Shown here piece after piece: positions 27,689-44,906 of a stretch of 64,000 nt of DNA. The position numbers and the translations under genes are program-made. The stretch is from Cetobacterium somerae ATCC BAA-474 (GTDB taxonomy: Bacteria > Fusobacteriota > Fusobacteriia > Fusobacteriales > Fusobacteriaceae). The notes beneath the pieces are model-generated. The model was not told where the DNA came from. It did no database searches and was given only the letters and a program-made list of their open reading frames with translations. The DNA is taken from contig NZ_KI518170.1 in assembly GCF_000479045.1 (NCBI RefSeq), positions 1-64,000 on the forward strand, read 5' to 3'. The number at the start of each line of letters is the position of its first letter. Position 1 is the first letter of the stretch.

Positions 27689-28756
27689 TTATTTTATTTT
27701 TTGTTTTTTATCTTTCATTTTATATAATTCAATGTCCGCTTTTTTATATAAACTATTTAAACTTTCATTTTCATATCTTTCTGCCATTCCTACACTAACA
27801 CTAAATTTTAAATCATTTGATAAATTCTCTTTTTCTAAATCTTTTTGTATTCTTTCATAAATTTTTTCTAAATCCTCTAAAGTCCCATCTATAATTATTG
27901 ACAATTCATCTCCACCTATTCGAATTATGAAATCATTTGATTTTCTTACATTTCTTTTTAAAATCTCAGATATTTTTTTTAAAACTAGATCACCAATATC
28001 ATGACCGTTATTATCATTTATCTCTTTAAATTTATCAATATCTAGAATCATCATTGAAAAAATAGTGTTTTTTTTATTTTCTAAAAGTTTATTTATTTTT
28101 TCTTCATAAAAATTTCTATTATATAGTCCAGTTAAAAGATCTTTATAAACTTTCTCTTTCAAATCTAATGTTTTCTTTTTAGAATCTGTAATCTCTTTTA
28201 TCATTCCTAAAATACCATACTTATCATTTCCTAAGTCAACTCTAGATTTAAATGTTTGATACCACCTTCCTTGAAATTTTTCCTCTTCATAAAAATTCCC
28301 ATTTTCTAAAGCTTTTCTGTTGTTAATTTCACACTTCTCTGCCATCTTTTTTGGAAAAAATTCACTCTCTTTTTTTCCAATTATCTCTAAATAAGATTTG
28401 CCTAGATAATTTGCATAAGATTCATTGAAATACTCTATTCTACCTTTTGAATCTAAATAAAATATGAAATCTTGAACTGTATCTAACATTGTTACTAATT
28501 TATATTCAGATTTTTCCATTATTTCATGGAATTCCATTTGGACAAACTTCTCATTTTCTACTTCTATATCGTAAGTTCTTACTTGATAATTTTCAATTAA
28601 ACTAAATTCTTTTACTGACAAATTTAAACGTTTTTCGTCAATATTCTGCTCTTTTAAAATATTTCTCATTTTTTTATTTAAATATTTAACTTCTAAGTTA
28701 CTATCTAAAACTAATATTCCTATTGTCAGATTGTCTAATAATATATTTTTAAACAT
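27689..28756 (-). CDS. PAS-GGDEF diguanylate cyclase
   Basis: A 355-residue soluble protein. Residues about 1-80 form a degenerate PAS-like region and 85-190 a PAS domain (TMLDTVQDFIFYLDSKGRIEYFN). A GGDEF domain spans 200-355 with DLLTGLYNRN, LDIDKFKEIND and the catalytic GGDEL at 281-285. It is predicted to make cyclic di-GMP. The position of the inhibitory RxxD site reads K272-S-N-D275, so product inhibition may be weak or altered. It is the only GGDEF protein in the window with an intact catalytic motif. It lies 7 kb from a Pel-like operon whose PelD carries an RxxD site. Confidence 0.93.
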   Translation of the reverse strand: MFKNILLDNLTIGILVLDSNLEVKYLNKKMRNILKEQNIDEKRLNLSVKEFSLIENYQVRTYDIEVENEKFVQMEFHEIMEKSEYKLVTMLDTVQDFIFYLDSKGRIEYFNESYANYLGKSYLEIIGKKESEFFPKKMAEKCEINNRKALENGNFYEEEKFQGRWYQTFKSRVDLGNDKYGILGMIKEITDSKKKTLDLKEKVYKDLLTGLYNRNFYEEKINKLLENKKNTIFSMMILDIDKFKEINDNNGHDIGDLVLKKISEILKRNVRKSNDFIIRIGGDELSIIIDGTLEDLEKIYERIQKDLEKENLSNDLKFSVSVGMAERYENESLNSLYKKADIELYKMKDKKQKIK

Positions 28757-35671: not shown

Positions 35672-36598
35672 TTAAAAAACATATTCAAAACCACATCTAA
35701 TTTTCATATATAGTCCAGATTCTGAAACATTTGAAAATTTTGTTTTTACTTCTTCAAAATTATATCCAGTTATTCCAATTTTTGCAAAAATTCTCAACTT
35801 CTCCGTTATATCTTGACTGTATAATAAGTACGGTCCTACATTGAATTTAAATGATTTATCTTGATCTGTATTCTTGTAGTAGTTATATGAATCAATTTCT
35901 GAATCTAATGAAAATGCAAAATTTTCATTTAAATCATATGTCCATCTAAAATTGTTTTCAATTCTAAATAAATAGGTTCCTCTATTATTTCCATAATCTA
36001 AATACTCATTATATATTGTGAAAAAATTCTGGAATCCATAACCTAAATTTATACTTCCTGTTAAGTTACCCTCTAAGGAATATCCATCTCTAGAATTTGT
36101 ATCAATAGATGAAAGAAAAAAATCAAATCCCCAATAAGCTCCACCCAATCCTATATCTGAATTAGTACGAACTCTATATCTCAATGAGTATTTATTTTCT
36201 TTAAAGTTCTCTCCAAAATCACTCGATATATCACTTACATTATATTTAATGTAGGGGCCTATATCGCTAAACCAATTTTTTCCAAAAACTTCTTTTTCCT
36301 CTAATTTCCTATATAAAGAAAAGGTATTTTCCCATCCATCTGTATTAGAATTTTTATCATATTTTTTTTCAATATCATAATCAAAAGTCCAATTGTCATT
36401 TAGTTTTGATGTACCCGTTCCTATTTTCCATTTGTAATATTTTTTTCCATCTTTATTTTCTAGCTCTCCATAGCTCTGATATAGATTGTTTTCTGGTTCT
36501 TCTAAATAAAAATTTAATATCTCCCGTCCAACACCAAAAGAACTTAAATGAAGTAGTAGAAATGTACATATAATATTTTTAATATTCATCTCCAACAT
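35672..36598 (-). CDS. Outer-membrane beta-barrel-like protein at the end of the Pel-like operon
   Basis: A 308-residue exported protein. The signal peptide is about residues 1-24 (KNIICTFLLLHLSSFGVG). The rest alternates aromatic and polar residues in 10-12-residue strands (YSLRYRVRTNSDIGLGGAYW; FFTIYNEYLDYG) and ends in Phe (CGFEYVF), as outer-membrane barrels do. I do not recognise a named family. Its 5' end overlaps pelG by 20 bp, so it belongs to the operon. It could be the export pore or a surface anchor, replacing the missing PelB porin, which is inference only. Met4 at 36589 is an alternative start. Confidence 0.8.
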   Translation of the reverse strand: MLEMNIKNIICTFLLLHLSSFGVGREILNFYLEEPENNLYQSYGELENKDGKKYYKWKIGTGTSKLNDNWTFDYDIEKKYDKNSNTDGWENTFSLYRKLEEKEVFGKNWFSDIGPYIKYNVSDISSDFGENFKENKYSLRYRVRTNSDIGLGGAYWGFDFFLSSIDTNSRDGYSLEGNLTGSINLGYGFQNFFTIYNEYLDYGNNRGTYLFRIENNFRWTYDLNENFAFSLDSEIDSYNYYKNTDQDKSFKFNVGPYLLYSQDITEKLRIFAKIGITGYNFEEVKTKFSNVSESGLYMKIRCGFEYVF

Positions 36599-38690
36599 AC
36601 ACTCCTTTTCTATTAAATCCTTCTCTATCTACTCCATTTTCATCATAACCATTTTTATCGTAACCATCTTTATCATAAATATTCTCATATGACGCGTCAT
36701 TTTCATTTTCAAAACCTTCTATTGGTTTTTTGTTTCCATCTTTATCATAACCACTTTTATTATAACCCTCTTCATTATATCCTTCATAGTTATACCCATT
36801 CTTATTATAATAATTATTTGTTTCTTTATTTAAACCATACCACGTCCATCCATTTTTATCAAACTCTGTTTTTGTTTCCTTGTTTAACCCTTGAAAATCA
36901 AATCCTTTTTTATCATATTTAGACTTAGTTATTCTATTATATCCGTTATAATCAAATCCTCTTTCGTCAATATTTTTTCCTGTATCACTGTTTATTCCAC
37001 TAAAATCAAAATTAAAATAGTCATACGGTGAGTCTGTATATATGTTCCATCCCTCTTTTGTAAATCCTCTTGAATTAATTCCCTCTTGATTATATCCATC
37101 ATAATTATATCCTTCTTTATTATAATAACTCATTGTATTCCAATTTCTTTTAGTTTTTCTATTAAATCCATCTTTTGTATGAGTACTTGTACAACCACTT
37201 AAAAATAAGAGTATAACTATTATTAGCGGAAAAATTAATTTGCGATTTAGTATCTTTTCTAGTTTCTCAAGAAAAGGAGCTTTAATATTAAAAGAAAAAT
37301 TTTGCTTATAAAAAGTAATATAATTTAACTCTTGAGCTATTCTATCTAGCATTATTTCTGATAAAATAAGGGATAAAAAAGCTGCTACAAAAAATCCAAG
37401 TCCTGTATATTCATTTCCCATTAATGATGTTATTATTGAAAAAAAGGTACTTAAAATGAAAAATACAATTGATATTAATAACGCCTCTTTTCTAGAATCA
37501 AAATATAAAAATATAGTTATATATACAGATATAAAAACCGTACAATAAGCTGCAAAAATCATGACTCTAAATAGATCTAGTAAATATAAATCCATTCCAT
37601 ATTTTAAAAATATTACTTTAGATAAAAGAGCTACTGAAAATGAAACAAAAAATTGAAGCTCCATTATATAGTAAATCTCCTCTTTTAATACATCAATCAT
37701 TTTTTTCTTTTCAACATCTATATCTACTAAGTTTCCATTTAAAGTTAGAAGAGCGTAATATCTTTTATAAATTGGAAAAAACTTAGTTTCCATAAATACT
37801 AAAAAATAAATCATAGTTGGAATTGTTAAAAAGAAAGCATAAAATACTGCAACCTCATATAATGGAGAGCTTAAAAATACTCCTCCTACTCTATATGAAT
37901 CACCATATATCCAATTTACAAATATATGAGACCACATTCCAAAATTAAAAAATATTCCAATAAAACTTAAAGAGGTATATCTCTTGAAAGCTCTTAAAAA
38001 CTCAAACTCACTTTCATCTGAATCTTCAAATATATATGTTAAATATGAAAAAAGCATAAAAAATGTTATTCCTATTCCAATTGTATAAGCTAAAATAATT
38101 GAATAAGCTAGATTATTTTTAAAAAATTCATTATTTGAATATTTTAAAATATATCCTCCTAAACCTACCGCTACAACATTTCCTATAACATAAGCTAATA
38201 TCGAATAACTATAGTTCTTTACAGCTGATATATAATTCATACTTACCCAAATTCCTGATAAAAAACAAAATAATGCAGTTAATGTATATATGTAAAACCA
38301 CGATAAATCCTGTCCTTTAAAATATAAAACACCTATAAAAAATGATATTATAGTTATAAATTTTATTGTTCCTATATATGTTGATTTTAATTTTTTTTGT
38401 TCTCCTGAGTATATACAATCAGATATAAATCTCGTTATTAAATATTGAACTGCTCCAGTTAAAAGTTGAGAAAATATGAACGAATAAACTATTCCTGTCA
38501 TAAATAGATTTCTCTCTCCTCTTGAAAGAATATATTGTTTTCCTATAAACATAAGAATATTTAAAGTTATAACAGTTATGAGCCATGGACCTACTCCAAT
38601 AAGGGCTGAATAGGCCATGGCCTTTATATCTTGAAACGTATTATTATCCTCTGAAAACAGATTTTTCAACTCAAATCCTATTCCTGCCAT
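36579..38690 (-). CDS. pelG: PelG-like polysaccharide membrane protein fused to a lipobox-bearing repeat domain
   Basis: A 703-residue protein. Residues 1-460 match PelG: start MAGIGFELKNLF, SALIGVGPWLITV, QYLITRFISDCIY, and about 12 membrane segments in the polysaccharide-transport (MOP-like) fold that helps polymerise and export Pel with PelD, PelE and PelF. Known PelG proteins end near 456 residues. Here the frame continues through a further hydrophobic segment (484-499) ending in a lipobox-like LFLSGC (Cys500), then about 200 acidic Tyr/Gly/Asn/Asp-rich repeat residues. The fusion is in frame with no stop. The next gene starts inside its last 20 bp. Whether the protein is cleaved at Cys500 is unknown. 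Confidence 0.88.
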   Translation of the reverse strand: MAGIGFELKNLFSEDNNTFQDIKAMAYSALIGVGPWLITVITLNILMFIGKQYILSRGERNLFMTGIVYSFIFSQLLTGAVQYLITRFISDCIYSGEQKKLKSTYIGTIKFITIISFFIGVLYFKGQDLSWFYIYTLTALFCFLSGIWVSMNYISAVKNYSYSILAYVIGNVVAVGLGGYILKYSNNEFFKNNLAYSIILAYTIGIGITFFMLFSYLTYIFEDSDESEFEFLRAFKRYTSLSFIGIFFNFGMWSHIFVNWIYGDSYRVGGVFLSSPLYEVAVFYAFFLTIPTMIYFLVFMETKFFPIYKRYYALLTLNGNLVDIDVEKKKMIDVLKEEIYYIMELQFFVSFSVALLSKVIFLKYGMDLYLLDLFRVMIFAAYCTVFISVYITIFLYFDSRKEALLISIVFFILSTFFSIITSLMGNEYTGLGFFVAAFLSLILSEIMLDRIAQELNYITFYKQNFSFNIKAPFLEKLEKILNRKLIFPLIIVILLFLSGCTSTHTKDGFNRKTKRNWNTMSYYNKEGYNYDGYNQEGINSRGFTKEGWNIYTDSPYDYFNFDFSGINSDTGKNIDERGFDYNGYNRITKSKYDKKGFDFQGLNKETKTEFDKNGWTWYGLNKETNNYYNKNGYNYEGYNEEGYNKSGYDKDGNKKPIEGFENENDASYENIYDKDGYDKNGYDENGVDREGFNRKGVYVGDEY
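36590..37178 (-). repeat. Degenerate YDxxGYN-type repeats encoding the PelG C-terminal domain
   Basis: Residues about 505-700 are built from an imperfect unit of roughly 7-8 residues, with examples YNKEGYN, YDGYNQEG, FDYNGYN, YDKKGFD, YDKDGYDKNGYDENG and REGFNRKG. The composition is rich in Tyr, Gly, Asn, Asp and Lys, net acidic. At DNA level the repeats are diverged, so this is an old array rather than a recent slippage tract. Confidence 0.85.
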
Positions 38691-38691
38691 A

Positions 38692-40104
38692 TTATTCTCC
38701 TAACTCTTTATATAATCTTTTATATGAATCTATAAATTTCTTTTTTGAATAGTATTTTTTAACTATCTCTTTTCCATTTTTTCCCATCTCATTTATTTTT
38801 TCTCTATTTTGAAAAAGTGAAACTATAGCATCTCCTAAATCAGAGTATGAAGTTGGTGGTACAATTATTCCTGCTTCTCCTTCAGATTTTTCTTTTAAAA
38901 TTTCTCTACAATTTCCAACATCTGTAGCTATAAAAGGAATTCCACAAGCTAATCCTTCTAATATGCTAAGTGGTTGTCCTTCTGAAATTGATGTTAACAT
39001 TAAAAAATCTAAAAATTTATAATAATCTTTTACATCTGCTCTTCCTGTAAAAGTAACATAATCTTTCAAATCTAAATTTTCTACTAATTCTAAGCACTCG
39101 TTATAATACTCCTCATTTTCCTCTGTAGGTCCTATTAAAAAAAGTTTAGTATTTCTCAGCTTAGGTAACGCCATTTTAAATCCCTTTAGCATCATTTTTA
39201 CATCTTTTATAGGAACGACTCTTAAAACTGAACCAATATTAAACCCTTCTCTTTTTTCTCTTATAACTTTAGAATAAGATTCAATATCAATACCATTTGG
39301 AATTACTTCACACTTTTTTGAATCTGCTCCATTTTCAATTTGAAGTTCTTTATTGTAGTCAAATAAAGATATTATTTTATCACACTCATCATAGGTTAAT
39401 CTTGATAAAAAGTAAAAAAAATCTATCCATATTTTTTTAAAATCTTTCTCTATCCATTTAGCACCAATAACTTCTTCCTCTCTTTCACGTGGATAAATTC
39501 CATGTTCTGTTAAAAGCAATGATCCACCATTTTTTATTTTTCCTAGTGCGGATACATATCCAGAGTACCCTGTTGCCACAGGATGATATATATCAGCTTT
39601 TGGCAACTCCTCTTGAGATAAAGATATTAAATTTAAAAATATATTTCTATATGTCCAATAAAAAGTATTAAATCCAATTCCATCATAATTTTGCTTGTAG
39701 TATTTTAATAAACTATTCCAAAAACTCTTATTTATTATTATCTCCAATGGATTTCCATATTTTTTATCTGATATTTTTTCTATTATTTTTATAACTTCTT
39801 CAGAATCAAGATTATTAAAATTTAAAATTTTTTCTATCTCTTCCTCTAATTTCTTAAATTTAAATCTATTTTTAAAAACTTTAAACGGTGAAATCTCATA
39901 ATTTTTATCCAAAATTATATTTTTAATCTCTGTAACATTTTTAGGTATTTCATATTTTATTTTTGCAAAATCTAAATTTGGTATTATACATACAATTGAG
40001 AATAAATGTTCTTCATTGGATTTTACTAAATCCTGAATCCATGAAGATACTCCACCTACAACATATGGATAAGACCCTTCGCATATTAAACAGATTTTTG
40101 CCAT
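38692..40104 (-). CDS. pelF: PelF-like cytoplasmic glycosyltransferase
   Basis: A 470-residue GT4-type enzyme that polymerises the Pel backbone from UDP-hexosamines at the membrane. The N-terminal half begins with CEGSYPYVVGGVSSWIQDL, hallmark of PelF (DUF3492). NGIDIESYSKVIRE and SVLRVVPIKDVKMMLKGF precede the catalytic E-x7-E segment EGQPLSILEGLACGIPFIATDVG. It is soluble. The start overlaps the PelE-like gene by 19 bp and the stop is 1 bp before pelG. Confidence 0.94.
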   Translation of the reverse strand: MAKICLICEGSYPYVVGGVSSWIQDLVKSNEEHLFSIVCIIPNLDFAKIKYEIPKNVTEIKNIILDKNYEISPFKVFKNRFKFKKLEEEIEKILNFNNLDSEEVIKIIEKISDKKYGNPLEIIINKSFWNSLLKYYKQNYDGIGFNTFYWTYRNIFLNLISLSQEELPKADIYHPVATGYSGYVSALGKIKNGGSLLLTEHGIYPREREEEVIGAKWIEKDFKKIWIDFFYFLSRLTYDECDKIISLFDYNKELQIENGADSKKCEVIPNGIDIESYSKVIREKREGFNIGSVLRVVPIKDVKMMLKGFKMALPKLRNTKLFLIGPTEENEEYYNECLELVENLDLKDYVTFTGRADVKDYYKFLDFLMLTSISEGQPLSILEGLACGIPFIATDVGNCREILKEKSEGEAGIIVPPTSYSDLGDAIVSLFQNREKINEMGKNGKEIVKKYYSKKKFIDSYKRLYKELGE

Positions 40105-40964
40105 TTTTTAACCTCTTTCAACATTTCATAATCATTTAAATCATAGTAATATTTTTCTATAAATTCCACTATTTTCTCATCTAAATCTTTTTTTTCTATA
40201 AGTTCTTGAATTAGTCTATTACACGCTTTATAATCTTTCATATCTTTATAAATAGTTAAAAGATTATATTTATCAATTATATCTAAATTTTCTTTTGACT
40301 TTGCAATATCTATGTATTTATTTTGATAAAATTCTAAAATCTCTCCAAGCAAAAGTCCTGAAGTACAATAATCATAATATATTTTAGAAAGTTCATTTGA
40401 GTCTTTTAACATCTCTTTTTCCTTTATAACCTTTTGAAAATTTTCATCAATTTTATTTATCTCTGTTGCTGCATAGTGTATAACTTCTATATCTTCATCC
40501 CACAGTGCTTTTTTTAGAACATCGACCTTAAACTTTAAATTTTGAGTTTCAAAACCAATTAAAAAGTTTTTCTTTTCTGTTGGAGTTCCAACTGCCAAGA
40601 TATCATAAGCTCCTATTAAATTAAGATCAATTGAGCTATTTACAATTATTTCTTTCTCTTCATTTAAAATATATTTTTCTAAATTCTCATTTATTTCAAT
40701 ATCACTTTTAAAATATTCTCTAAAAAATAAAAAATTATTTATTAAAGCCATAACATATCCAACTATAGGAAAAATTAAAATAAAAATATCAAATTGATTT
40801 TCTCCTAAAAATAATCTATTTAAATATATAAAAATTAAAGCTAATGAAAAATGAGAAATCCAAAAGTATGATCTGAAACTTAAGAGTCCATTTTTAAAAT
40901 AAAAAAATATTAGAATATCTAATATAAGAAATATAAATATGAGGAATATCTTTTTTATTTTCAT
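40086..40964 (-). CDS. pelE: PelE-like membrane/helical-repeat protein
   Basis: A 292-residue protein. Three hydrophobic segments (about 5-25, 33-50, 58-80) precede a long cytoplasmic helical region that looks TPR- or HEAT-like (YDYCTSGLLLGEILEFYQ; YNLLTIYKDMKDYKACNRLIQEL). PelE proteins have two membrane helices and TPRs, and stabilise the PelD-E-F-G synthase complex. Sequence identity is too low for assignment without context. Position between the deacetylase-like gene and pelF supports it. Confidence 0.7.
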   Translation of the reverse strand: MKIKKIFLIFIFLILDILIFFYFKNGLLSFRSYFWISHFSLALIFIYLNRLFLGENQFDIFILIFPIVGYVMALINNFLFFREYFKSDIEINENLEKYILNEEKEIIVNSSIDLNLIGAYDILAVGTPTEKKNFLIGFETQNLKFKVDVLKKALWDEDIEVIHYAATEINKIDENFQKVIKEKEMLKDSNELSKIYYDYCTSGLLLGEILEFYQNKYIDIAKSKENLDIIDKYNLLTIYKDMKDYKACNRLIQELIEKKDLDEKIVEFIEKYYYDLNDYEMLKEVKKWQKSV

Positions 40965-42793
40965 TATAAATCCTCCAATATTATTTTAACTTCTGGGTCT
41001 TTTGCTGTCACAATATAAAAAGATTCATTTTCACTTTTGTTAATAAATTTAAAATCGCCACCTAGGACTTTAATTATTTTTTTATTTTTTATTTTAAAAT
41101 GTGAATCAAATTGTCCTCTATAGTTTTTTATATTTATGAAAACATTGTTATCCTTCTTTTCATATTCTAAATCAATATTTTCTATAACACTATAATCATA
41201 TGTCATTTCACTTTGAATTTGTGATTTTAAAACTGGATAGTTACTATTTACAGTTGAAAATATTCTTTCAAACTCTGCTTTTAACTCTTCCCAAGATTTA
41301 CCATTTCCTCTCTCTTTATCCATAATATCGTCTGGATGTATAAAATGTGAAAGATATCCATATGCTCCAATAGCATTATATATTTGCCAAATAACTGTAT
41401 CTGTATAGAAAAATCCAGATGACATTCTAGGAAGGGAGTATATATTTTTAAAATCTGGATCTCTTCCTACTTCTTGTAACAGTAATCCCGGTTCATTCTC
41501 TCCATAAAAAATTCCACAAAATACTTTTAAATTTGTAAATGTTTCCACTATAGCTTTCTTCCCACTTACAGGTAATAGATTACTTGGTGCTACATAACTA
41601 TAAATATTAAAATTTTCACCATAAATATTTTCTATTTCATCCTTTGCTACTGTTAATCCTTTTTTCATTGCATCAATGCTTTCCCATGGTGTATATCCAT
41701 AATCTTCATAATCAATCTCTTTTTCCAATCCTAAAGAGTAATGATTATATCCATGTAATCCTAATTCTCCACCTATCGATTTTAGTTCTCTTCCTCTTTT
41801 ACTAAGATCATCAAACGTCTTTTTTCCAACTCTGACTATTTTATCTTTAATAGTTAAATCGTTATACTCAATTATAATAAATCCTGTCATTTTTAATCTT
41901 TGTCTTTCTGCAATTCCCATCATATCTTGCCACCAAATAAGATTAAAAAATCCTGAAGTATCCATTCCATACTCTTTTTTTATAATTTCATTTTGAACTA
42001 CTGGAATTGGTGATGGGAAATCATCAATTTGAAGTATTTTAGAATTTAAAATTGGAAAAAATGTAACATCTTCAATATAAGCTATTAATTGCTTCATTAC
42101 TCCTCTAAAAATTTTACCTTGAAATAATGTGGTATTACTAAAAAATACTTTTCCCTCTCCATATTTTCTAATCCACATTAAAGGTTCATTATTATCTGTT
42201 GTAGCTATCACATCAATATCTTTTTTTAAATTCATTTTTAGTCCCGAGCTACCAAAGATAATACTTCCAGGTTTTAAATCCTTTAATCCTGGAAATATAT
42301 CTTTTTTTAAATTGAAACTTTTAGTTTCAATAAATTCACCAATTTTTTCTATCCCAGCCATTTGATTAAAAGGACTTCTATAAGATCTTTGAGTTATAAA
42401 AAGATTTCCACCTTTTTCAACTCTCTCTTTTATTCCTAAAAAGTTTTCCTTTAATAAACCACTATAATTTTCTACTGCTAAGATTATTAAACTATACTCA
42501 GAAAAATCTAAAGCTTTATCTGTTGAAATTGAAATTGAGTCATACTTAACTTTTGAAAAATTAAAAACCTCTTCTAATCCATCTTTTATATCTTGACTTC
42601 CCTCACTTCCATCTCCGTATAAAATAAGATATTTTTCAGGTTTTTCTATTTTTAAATTTCCAGATACTGGAGTTGGAAGACTAAAATTATAAATCTGTTT
42701 TAAATTAAATATATCTTCCAAATTTTTTATTCTTAACTCTTGAAAAAAGAATACTGCTATTAGTACTAGACCTAATATATATTTAGATTTCAT
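40964..42793 (-). CDS. DUF2194/PelA-like polysaccharide deacetylase, membrane-anchored
   Basis: A 609-residue protein with an N-terminal membrane or signal segment (ILGLVLIAVFFF). Residues about 50-245 form a flavodoxin/GATase-like domain and 250-510 a NodB-like deacetylase region. Candidate metal residues are Asp-Asp in ILQIDDFPS, His-x3-His in GLHGYNHYS, and His in SHFIHPDD. A C-terminal beta domain follows. It resembles the deacetylase half of PelA, which removes acetyl groups from Pel in the periplasm. The frame has a TTG at 42802. The ATG at 42793, with AGGAG nine bases upstream, is preferred and overlaps pelD by 11 bp. Confidence 0.85.
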   Translation of the reverse strand: MKSKYILGLVLIAVFFFQELRIKNLEDIFNLKQIYNFSLPTPVSGNLKIEKPEKYLILYGDGSEGSQDIKDGLEEVFNFSKVKYDSISISTDKALDFSEYSLIILAVENYSGLLKENFLGIKERVEKGGNLFITQRSYRSPFNQMAGIEKIGEFIETKSFNLKKDIFPGLKDLKPGSIIFGSSGLKMNLKKDIDVIATTDNNEPLMWIRKYGEGKVFFSNTTLFQGKIFRGVMKQLIAYIEDVTFFPILNSKILQIDDFPSPIPVVQNEIIKKEYGMDTSGFFNLIWWQDMMGIAERQRLKMTGFIIIEYNDLTIKDKIVRVGKKTFDDLSKRGRELKSIGGELGLHGYNHYSLGLEKEIDYEDYGYTPWESIDAMKKGLTVAKDEIENIYGENFNIYSYVAPSNLLPVSGKKAIVETFTNLKVFCGIFYGENEPGLLLQEVGRDPDFKNIYSLPRMSSGFFYTDTVIWQIYNAIGAYGYLSHFIHPDDIMDKERGNGKSWEELKAEFERIFSTVNSNYPVLKSQIQSEMTYDYSVIENIDLEYEKKDNNVFINIKNYRGQFDSHFKIKNKKIIKVLGGDFKFINKSENESFYIVTAKDPEVKIILEDL

Positions 42794-43994
42794 ATATTTC
42801 AACTCCTGGAAGAATTTCAGAAACCCTTTTTATTAAAACATCTTTACTTTCTCTATTAGCATTTACAAAAAGAAATTTTATAGTCTCCTCACTCATTCCT
42901 ACAACATCTATATCTCTAACTTTTCCTTTTAACTTTTCATTCAATTCTTTTGGTGTAAAATTTGGATTTCCAGCTTCTAATGCTATATATTCAGATCCAA
43001 ATAATTTTTTTCTTTTCTTATCCTCTTCTAAAATATATGAAAAATATTGTAAATTATATATTCTTGTGTTTTCATATGAATTTTTTAATATTTCAATCTC
43101 TGCCTTATCAAAAGCATTTACTAAAGCATTATTAATCCACTGGCTTATTACCTTAAACAATTCTAATAGATATTTTTCTTGATTATTATATTTTAATCTT
43201 TCTATGTTTACAATTCCAACAACTTCTTCGCCCTTCAAAATTGGAGCTACATAAACAGGATTTTTTATATTTAAATCTCTATTCCCTTCTAGTGTTTCTT
43301 TACTTTTTAAAACTTTAGAGTATATATCTCCCTCTTCTACTATTATAAAGTTTGGAATTACGCTATTTCCTATTTTTACTCTTGCTCTAAACGTATTTCT
43401 CTCTTTATTGTATATATATATCGATACTACGTCACTTCCTAAAAAATCTGTTAATATCTGCAAAATTTGTGTAAATATTTTTTCTACATTTTTAGTTAAT
43501 ATTGAAGATGTTATTTGATGTAGAGTTAAAATGCTTTCTTTACTTCCCACTATTCTACTTTTTAATCTTTCATTTATATTCACTAATTCTAAATTTTTTT
43601 CTCTTTGATTTTGATTTTTTTCTTCTAAGATTTTATTCTCATCTTTTAAATCATCAATTTTTTTTCTAAGATTATCAGAAAATCTTCCAAGGGATAGGGC
43701 AATAAAAAAGAAAAGCAAAATAAATTTATAATAACTAAAATCTAAAAAGAACACAACTAAATCATTGCCTAATTGATAGTAAGCAAGAATATAAAATAAT
43801 GAGGCTATTATAACCGTTTGTAGACTAATATAGACTCCATATTTTAATGCCATTATTCCTATAACAATAGTTAATGGTTGAATATTCATATTTAAGAAAT
43901 CACTTTTAAAATTTGAAAAATAAAAAAATATTAAATATATTGCTAGACAATATACAATACTTTCAACTATACTTAAAATAAAATTTTTTTTCAT
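42783..43994 (-). CDS. pelD: PelD-like c-di-GMP receptor (TM-coiled coil-GAF-degenerate GGDEF)
   Basis: A 403-residue inner-membrane protein. Four hydrophobic segments lie in 1-100, a coiled coil at about 108-145 (FSDNLRKKIDDLKDENKILE), a GAF domain at about 155-295, and a degenerate GGDEF domain at 310-403 without a catalytic GGDEF. R360-D-I-D363 is an RxxD motif in the region equivalent to the inhibitory site that binds cyclic di-GMP in Pseudomonas PelD. It is predicted to switch on the Pel synthase when cyclic di-GMP rises. It lies 12 bp after the hydrolase gene. Confidence 0.9.
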   Translation of the reverse strand: MKKNFILSIVESIVYCLAIYLIFFYFSNFKSDFLNMNIQPLTIVIGIMALKYGVYISLQTVIIASLFYILAYYQLGNDLVVFFLDFSYYKFILLFFFIALSLGRFSDNLRKKIDDLKDENKILEEKNQNQREKNLELVNINERLKSRIVGSKESILTLHQITSSILTKNVEKIFTQILQILTDFLGSDVVSIYIYNKERNTFRARVKIGNSVIPNFIIVEEGDIYSKVLKSKETLEGNRDLNIKNPVYVAPILKGEEVVGIVNIERLKYNNQEKYLLELFKVISQWINNALVNAFDKAEIEILKNSYENTRIYNLQYFSYILEEDKKRKKLFGSEYIALEAGNPNFTPKELNEKLKGKVRDIDVVGMSEETIKFLFVNANRESKDVLIKRVSEILPGVEIYEI

Positions 43995-44006
43995 AAAATA
44001 CCACCT

Positions 44007-44906
44007 TTAAAACTGCTCATAAGTGTCTATAGTATCTAAATAGTACCCATCTACTCCTATGTCATCTAATTTTTTCTGATAATTTCTTATAATCTCTTTC
44101 CACTGAGGACTCCAATATTTTATTATAAAATTACCTTCCCAATTCTCATTCTCTTTAACTATCCATTCAGGTAGTTTTTTATTCCAAGAATTATGCCAAT
44201 AACCTCTATAATTTTCTGCTTCTCCTATACTAAAATAAGCAATTATCAATCTTCGAGTTCCATTTTTTCTTATTTTTAAAGATTTGATTTGTTCTTTTGT
44301 TAAAAATTTACCATTTAAACTAGGTTCTATAATTAATAAATCAAAATCTGTATTCTTTAAAACTCTATAGTAATCATCTACATTCTTAAATTTTTCAGGA
44401 TTTAAAAGATATAAAAAATTTTTAACTTCCTTTAAGTTAGTTACATTTTTTAAACTATTTTTTTGAAGAGGTTGAAAAATACTATTAGCACTATATGAAG
44501 AAACTGCTTCTCCCACAAAATTATATTTCTCTGTATCCTTTAAAATTTTACCTCTCAACTTTTTATCGTTAGCATAATTTACTGAAAATACTACTTTTCC
44601 CTCTTTTTCTATTTCAATTAAATTCTTTAAAAGATAATTTTTTTCATCTTCAGGAGTTGCTTCATTTATACCTCCAACACCATAAAACAATGATTCTTGG
44701 GAAACCCCATCTACATTTTTTATAAATTCCATATCCAATTTATCTCCATTAAAAAAAATATTAGTTCCATTTTGTGGCACTAATATTTTCTCTTTGGATT
44801 GGGTTTTTATCTGCTTTATAAGTTCTCTCATTTTTATTTTACTCACTTCATCCCCTTTTACAAAAGATATCATCGAAATAAATAGGAAAACTATAATTTT
44901 TTTCAT
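44007..44906 (-). CDS. Exported GH114/PelA-hydrolase-like glycosidase
   Basis: A 299-residue secreted protein. The signal peptide MKKIIVFLFISMISFVKG is followed by an alpha/beta region and the TIM-barrel hallmark segments IAYFSIGEAENYRGYW and GVDGYYLDTID with acidic catalytic-site residues. It resembles endo-alpha-1,4-polygalactosaminidases (GH114/GH166) and the hydrolase half of PelA. It probably trims or processes the exported polymer. An ATG at 44918 is in frame, but the GGAGAGG site points to 44906. Here the hydrolase and deacetylase of PelA are separate genes flanking pelD. Confidence 0.85.
   Translation of the reverse strand: MKKIIVFLFISMISFVKGDEVSKIKMRELIKQIKTQSKEKILVPQNGTNIFFNGDKLDMEFIKNVDGVSQESLFYGVGGINEATPEDEKNYLLKNLIEIEKEGKVVFSVNYANDKKLRGKILKDTEKYNFVGEAVSSYSANSIFQPLQKNSLKNVTNLKEVKNFLYLLNPEKFKNVDDYYRVLKNTDFDLLIIEPSLNGKFLTKEQIKSLKIRKNGTRRLIIAYFSIGEAENYRGYWHNSWNKKLPEWIVKENENWEGNFIIKYWSPQWKEIIRNYQKKLDDIGVDGYYLDTIDTYEQF

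Follow-up and report, generated by a model that had tools for sequence, protein, structure and literature searches.

The pel operon of the gut bacterium Cetobacterium somerae ATCC BAA-474 appears to be a Gram-positive-type exopolysaccharide operon that works in a diderm cell and is furnished with an outer-membrane exit of its own. The operon lies in the 64,000-nucleotide stretch analysed here (contig NZ_KI518170.1, positions 1 to 64,000; hereafter the window), where seven open reading frames (ORFs) on the minus strand occupy positions 35672-44906 and abut or overlap their neighbours by 1-20 bases, in the order GH191/GH114-type hydrolase, PelD, DUF2194 deacetylase (PelADA), PelE, PelF, PelG and a barrel-like protein. 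This general view we consider probable. A more specific reading is that PelG of the Fusobacteriota is a polyprotein that frees an exit lipoprotein by means of an internal type II signal peptide; this lipoprotein and a barrel of a new family, encoded by an overlapping gene, would form a route unrelated to PelBC. On this reading, the Negativicutes, the Mcinerneyibacteriota and one genus of Fusobacteriota, also diderm, took on barrels of other kinds, in some cases as fusions with PelG; we assign it a probability of a little under one half.

Judged from their sequences, the identities of PelF, PelG and the deacetylase are beyond doubt, and the initial annotation was right to recognise a Pel-type operon of seven genes. 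PelF (38692..40104) has the DUF3492 plus GT4 architecture (DUF3492, E = 6e-81) and matches the NCBIfam PelF model NF038011 at E = 3e-104 (349.9 bits, cut-off 100), the PelG domain matches PF16933 at E = 7e-125, and the deacetylase (40964..42793, with an alternative TTG start at 42802) matches the DUF2194 family PF09960 at E = 2.5e-95. No Pfam model names PelD or PelE among the window proteins, and both proposed identities were borne out by profile-profile comparison (hhalign) with alignments built from proteobacterial operons, in which unrelated control pairs scored 0.1%. PelD (42783..43994) scored 98.0% over 375 columns, and the PelE-like protein (40086..40964), with membrane helices and a helical repeat region, scored 94.5% over 286 columns of small alignments. 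PelD consists of a transmembrane part, a GAF domain identified by its match, and a degenerate GGDEF domain whose RxxD motif (RDID) aligns with RGAD of the proteobacterial protein and is a predicted cyclic di-GMP (c-di-GMP) site. In the Fusobacterium nucleatum-like and Leptotrichia-like loci (L038:4073-4960, L039:3873-4799), PelD has only ~300 residues, too short for the degenerate GGDEF domain, and control by c-di-GMP may thus be lost there.

The affinities of the operon were addressed with a maximum-likelihood tree of 82 PelG sequences, which is unrooted and gives no direction of change. The tree contains a 100/100 split between PelG of PelB-type operons and PelG of Bacillota, Negativicutes and Fusobacteriota with Mcinerneyibacterium; the Fusobacteriota with a repeat tail (see below), the Bacilli with CotH, and the Negativicutes each form one clade. 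The deacetylase, in turn, matches PelADA of Bacillus cereus, for which a structure has been solved (PDB 9zau; PMC13254593), at E = 4.5e-72 over 540 residues, with the motifs D, HxxxH, R and HPD all present and aligned. Taken together, the position of PelG on the Bacillota side and the match of the deacetylase indicate an operon of the Gram-positive pelDEADAFG type. In that type the hydrolase and deacetylase are already separate genes (PMC7112168), and thus the proposal of a rearranged Pseudomonas layout with PelA split in two does not hold, even though two genes are indeed present, as ORFs and domain matches show. As in B. cereus ATCC 10987 (PMC7112168, PMC13254593), PelD, PelE, a DUF2194-type PelADA, PelF and PelG are separate in one operon, the hydrolase has its own gene, and PelG falls on the same side of the tree. 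The C. somerae operon differs in gene order (GH-D-ADA-E-F-G versus D-E-ADA-F-G), in a hydrolase that lies inside the operon and is permuted, in a PelG with a signal-like junction and repeat tail, in an extra barrel-like gene, and in a diderm host. The diderm nature of the cell, previously suggested, agrees with the Omp85 (E = 5e-58) and LspA (E = 8e-37) matches in its own genome, both expected of such a cell. The simplest reading of the tree would be that core operons lacking PelB gained their exits independently in the various diderm lineages.

The initial annotation had found no recognisable PelB or PelC, and wider searches agree. In a survey of 98 Fusobacteriota genomes, of which 24 carried PelG above the cut-off and had their loci fetched and annotated, the PelB barrel model PF24604 matched in 0 of 98; the run itself lacked a positive control, but the model does detect PelB in Pseudoalteromonas, Trichlorobacter and Geobacter. 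It found nothing in Mcinerneyibacterium or Anaerovibrio, while matching in these controls. No PelC-like gene lies in or beside the operon; no genome-wide search for PelC was made, and no Pfam model passed its cut-off on a known PelC. Compared with the pelABCDEFG operon and PelBC of Pseudomonas aeruginosa (PMC12141448), the C. somerae operon shares homologues of PelD, PelE, PelF and PelG, the diderm setting, and a lipoprotein accompanied by a barrel-like protein, but lacks the PelA fusion, PelB with its tetratricopeptide repeats (TPR) and 16-strand porin barrel, and PelC, and its own lipoprotein and barrel are unrelated to these by sequence profile.

The putative lipoprotein is encoded within pelG itself. 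Truncated or broken copies aside, PelG open frames in the 24 genomes span 526-1053 residues, compared with 452 positions for the domain. In the window, residues 1-460 are PelG (37311..38690), a MOP/MATE-fold exporter, followed in frame by a signal-peptide-like hydrophobic helix with the lipobox LSGC (residues 480-500, ending in Cys500; 37191..37253) and a tail of YDxxG repeats (residues 500-703 and stop; 36579..37193). The same arrangement of PelG, hydrophobic segment and repeat tail in one frame was found in 20 of 20 fused loci, 19 from the phylum survey (window included) and one from Fusobacterium vincentii (L060). The best 17-residue Kyte-Doolittle score of the segment is ~2.0-2.7, and by motif a Cys follows G or S at its end in 17 of the 20; the other three (L042, L043 and L054) have AxA-like sites resembling those of signal peptidase I (GGKANA|AYD, SAKAHA|AYD and GKIKA|STYD). 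In four loci of one genus (L049-L052; MKYKIAIVISGIIFMAGCSS), the repeats are instead encoded by a lipoprotein gene apart from pelG, complete with signal peptide; all four have the lipobox motif, and their Cys aligns with the internal Cys of the fusions. Separate translation of the window tail was considered and rejected, as the only ATG near the junction, codon 447, has no ribosome site. In an AlphaFold model of the fusion (25 sequences; mean predicted local distance difference test score, pLDDT, 82.6), residues 1-462 adopt a MOP/MATE fold and 486-497 a short helix; a linker modelled with low confidence then leads to a repetitive tail (pLDDT 81-87 at ~530-620). A fold search with the whole fusion returned only MOP/MATE structures, covering 3-462 (MATE 6ids, Z 23.3, root-mean-square deviation 4.1, 392 aligned), and a PDB sequence search with the repeat-tail profile gave no relative. 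Strong matches to the tail occur solely behind PelG.

This anatomy is best read as that of a precursor: the pelG product would give rise to its own partner in the outer membrane, with putative cleavage and lipidation at Cys500. Alternatively, the tail is not released, the segment being an extra transmembrane helix that ties the tail to PelG as a periplasmic bridge to the barrel, the whole forming one physical unit. P. aeruginosa PelB has been suggested to keep an uncleaved N-terminal helix that bridges both membranes (PMC12141448). Likewise, no clear cleavage site is evident in the g7 segment ahead of a barrel-like domain (LLSYSAIIYYD), and PelG of g14 and of Mcinerneyibacterium keeps a C-terminal helix but has no repeat tail. 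However, a Cys after G, S or A is retained in 17 of the 20 fusions of Fusobacteriota and in all 16 of Bacilli, and an AxA-like site replaces it in the other three, which is more than a mere anchor would need; in one clade, the tail has a lipoprotein gene to itself. An uncleaved tail is therefore considered unlikely. As an analogy only, the cytochrome b/c1 precursor encoded by fbcH of Bradyrhizobium joins an inner-membrane and an exported protein in one chain with an internal signal peptide, the difference being that it involves no lipoprotein and belongs to another pathway. No description of a lipoprotein joined in frame to an inner-membrane exporter was found in open-licence PMC papers, and its novelty is provisional.

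The last gene (35672..36589, alternative start 36598) encodes a protein with a signal peptide that ends in YVF, and has no database match. A profile of 17 members gave strong matches (E <1e-80) in 22 of the 98 genomes, 21 of them among the 24 with PelG. The PelG genomes that lack a strong match are G039 and G040, where PelG is fused to another barrel-like domain, and G061, where the contig ends; conversely, a barrel without PelG occurs in G056, a genome that is 62% complete. Where no contig end interrupts it, every pel locus of the Fusobacteriota has a barrel-like gene or domain linked to it. All 17 family members end in F or W, and their strand alternation (z 1.3-5.5, mean 3.3; 5.5 for the window protein) can be set beside that of PelB barrels (2.9) and soluble controls (-1.3), which is compatible with an outer-membrane beta-barrel. 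The suggestion that the last two coding units form a different outer-membrane exit is thus upheld to the extent that tail and barrel are the best candidates, from co-occurrence and gene order.

In other lineages, different proteins occupy this position. In G039 and G040, PelG is fused, through a long linker, to a domain whose last residues are KEF. This domain is unrelated to the Fusobacteriota barrel but has a homologue (E = 4e-47) in Candidatus Mcinerneyibacterium, where it forms a gene by itself at the start of the pel operon; judging from its last residue and its position, the g7/Mcinerneyibacterium domain may also be a barrel. In nine Negativicutes loci, PelG is followed by a coiled-coil protein of 626-1194 residues with a barrel-like C-terminus; these proteins are related to one another, with no detectable kinship to the Fusobacteriota barrel. 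The coiled-coil protein is a separate gene in eight of the nine loci, and in the ninth (L155:8899-12306, plus strand) is in frame with PelG through a Sec-type signal-like segment (RRSVAAALAVFVAGYASPLWAGA). Fusions are also found in monoderm cells: in Paenibacillus, Brevibacillus, Solibacillus and relatives, PelG reads on in frame through a hydrophobic segment and a lipobox Cys into an exported domain, here CotH (PF08757), in 16 of 16 loci (L068, L069, L075, L078-L081, L084, L085, L090, L092, L096, L098, L118, L121 and L132). CotH as a separate gene beside pel has been published (PMC7112168), and since the PelG-CotH proteins form a clade of their own, they most simply represent a separate fusion. 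A Planctomycetota PelG (L135:10001-12652, plus strand) has a ~430-residue acidic, apparently disordered tail with no hydrophobic segment. The best reading across the diderm lineages is that lineage-specific barrels replace PelBC.

Based on these data, the following route can be proposed. By homology, PelD, probably with c-di-GMP, and PelE would activate PelF, the presumed maker of an N-acetylgalactosamine (GalNAc) polymer, which PelG would move across the inner membrane. The second signal peptide, after the last helix of PelG, would lead the YDxxG-repeat part into the periplasm, where, given the anatomy of the 20 loci, it is most likely cut by LspA ahead of Cys500 and lipidated. PelADA, by analogy with its solved homologue, would deacetylate the polymer on the periplasmic side of the inner membrane, and the permuted hydrolase may trim Pel in the periplasm. 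Passage of the polymer out of the cell would then fall to the repeat lipoprotein, which probably sits at the outer membrane, and to the barrel from the overlapping gene, the two taking over from PelC and PelB; we infer this joint role from co-occurrence and gene order. The product would be Pel, a partially deacetylated alpha-1,4-GalNAc polymer, although we are aware of no chemical identification of the pel polymer in Fusobacteriota.

Several points weigh against this route, of which cleavage, location and Pel transport are all inferred steps. LNGC, found in three loci, is a poor lipobox, and an analogy between the tail and the acidic funnel of PelC was dropped because the isoelectric point of the tail ranges over 4.8-8.9. 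Strand alternation is no proof of a barrel and is z ~0 for the g7/Mcinerneyibacterium domain; the AlphaFold model of the barrel (two sequences) reached pLDDT 35 and was not used; and no PDB sequence matches the barrel profile. The Fisher p of 3e-17 for co-occurrence of barrel and PelG overstates independence, as the genomes counted are related by descent. Moreover, weaker relatives of the repeats occur away from pel in some genomes, and the PelG-lipoprotein fusions of Bacilli, which have no outer membrane, mean that fusion alone is no sign of an outer-membrane role. These last two points would also suit tail and barrel binding or holding Pel at the cell surface, in retention or adhesion, with the polymer leaving by another channel, as would the aromatic-rich (14-20%) and glycine-rich composition of the repeats, which is found in some sugar-binding repeats. 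Yet the PelB-less pel loci examined in diderms have a barrel-like gene in tight linkage, and this gene is unrelated between three lineages, which points to a required exit, and neither Wza-type nor PgaA-type exit models matched in the C. somerae genome. A role confined to the surface is thus quite unlikely.

It is also conceivable that the operon has decayed, or that its polymer is not exported or is other than Pel. Damaged loci do exist (L054, L033 and L047), including a pelG with stops (G078), a fragmented pelF and DUF2194 gene (G040), and a pelF in two pieces (G019). However, tail (dN/dS, the ratio of nonsynonymous to synonymous substitution rates, 0.09-0.14) and barrel (0.08-0.18) are under purifying selection like PelG (0.06-0.18 for the three together), and the predicted catalytic residues are intact. 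Regulation of the operon as a whole is likewise evident from two studies of F. nucleatum. In coculture with Porphyromonas gingivalis, a run of seven successive tags (CS401_RS04325 to RS04355) drops by log2 -3.0 to -6.0, or 8- to 64-fold (PMC9848294). Among them is a hypothetical gene that sits where the barrel gene would be, as assigned by comparing the order of the tags with that of the F. vincentii genes rather than by sequence; in the other study, C4N14_05285-05320, which includes pelG, is one responsive cluster (PMC12826042). Decay or a different product is accordingly regarded as very unlikely. Finally, an origin of barrel and tail from PelB and PelC, by divergence past recognition, is scarcely credible: the operon setting and the pairing of lipoprotein and barrel-like protein do match, and hhalign on small alignments may miss very remote kinship, but barrel against PelB and tail against PelC each scored 0.1% where PelD and PelE score high at equal distance, a TPR part is lacking, and the PelG tree groups the operon with those that have no PelBC.

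The hydrolase (44007..44906), a predicted secreted endo-galactosaminidase, matches GH114 (E = 2e-11) and TIGR01370 (E = 7e-43). Its start at ATG 44906, directly preceded by GGAGAGG, is better than 44918, which the ORF caller had chosen. Numbered from 44906, residues 183-298 match 23-137, and 28-115 match 159-240, of TM1410 (9euz, 2aam). Relative to the solved GH191/TM1410 (beta/alpha)8 order, the predicted protein is therefore circularly permuted, its kinship being otherwise clear. Like the TM1410/GH191 endo-galactosaminidases (PMC12054363), it has both catalytic-site blocks, and differs in the swapped barrel halves. By analogy with TmGH191 (PMC12054363), the catalytic pair is expected to be E75 (DGVSQES) and D295 (YYLD), in numbering from 44918. 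The block swap is also seen against the g7 hydrolase; a hidden Markov model of the Fusobacteriota hydrolase is collinear with those of Mcinerneyibacterium and Negativicutes, and has swapped blocks in Desulfovibrio, Planctomycetota and KSB1 enzymes. As its closest PDB relatives are TM1410/GH191, in permuted form, the hydrolase is not a cut-off half of PelA. No description of a permuted GH114 or GH191 was found in the open-licence literature. Neither this permutation nor the lipobox and repeat tail within pelG figured in the initial annotation.

The contig that bears the operon is part of a 3.07 Mb genome, 99% complete. Its PelF is 99.4% identical to that of C. somerae plasmid p1 (NZ_CP143320.1), where the pel gene order is identical and the last gene is annotated 'hypothetical protein'. 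G005, of the same genus, has two different pel loci (L037 and L053). The genome has 11 GGDEF matches, one of them inside the window: a GGDEF-domain protein (27701-28144, minus strand, in a 361-residue frame) that lies ~8 kb from the operon and is a possible source of c-di-GMP. A promoter scan gave many consensus matches and was uninformative in AT-rich sequence.

Outer-membrane export of Pel has so far been described for PelBC. If the reading proposed here is true, PelB-less diderms, including oral relatives of Fusobacterium and Selenomonas, would use other channels, the rule of a lipoprotein ring with a TPR porin would not be general, and the exit step could be compared across independent solutions. 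It is unusual for an inner-membrane exporter to be fused in frame to a lipoprotein that brings a second signal peptide, and such fusions recur here in cells with and without an outer membrane. Taken as a whole, these arrangements suggest that bacteria have solved the outer-membrane step of Pel export more than once.

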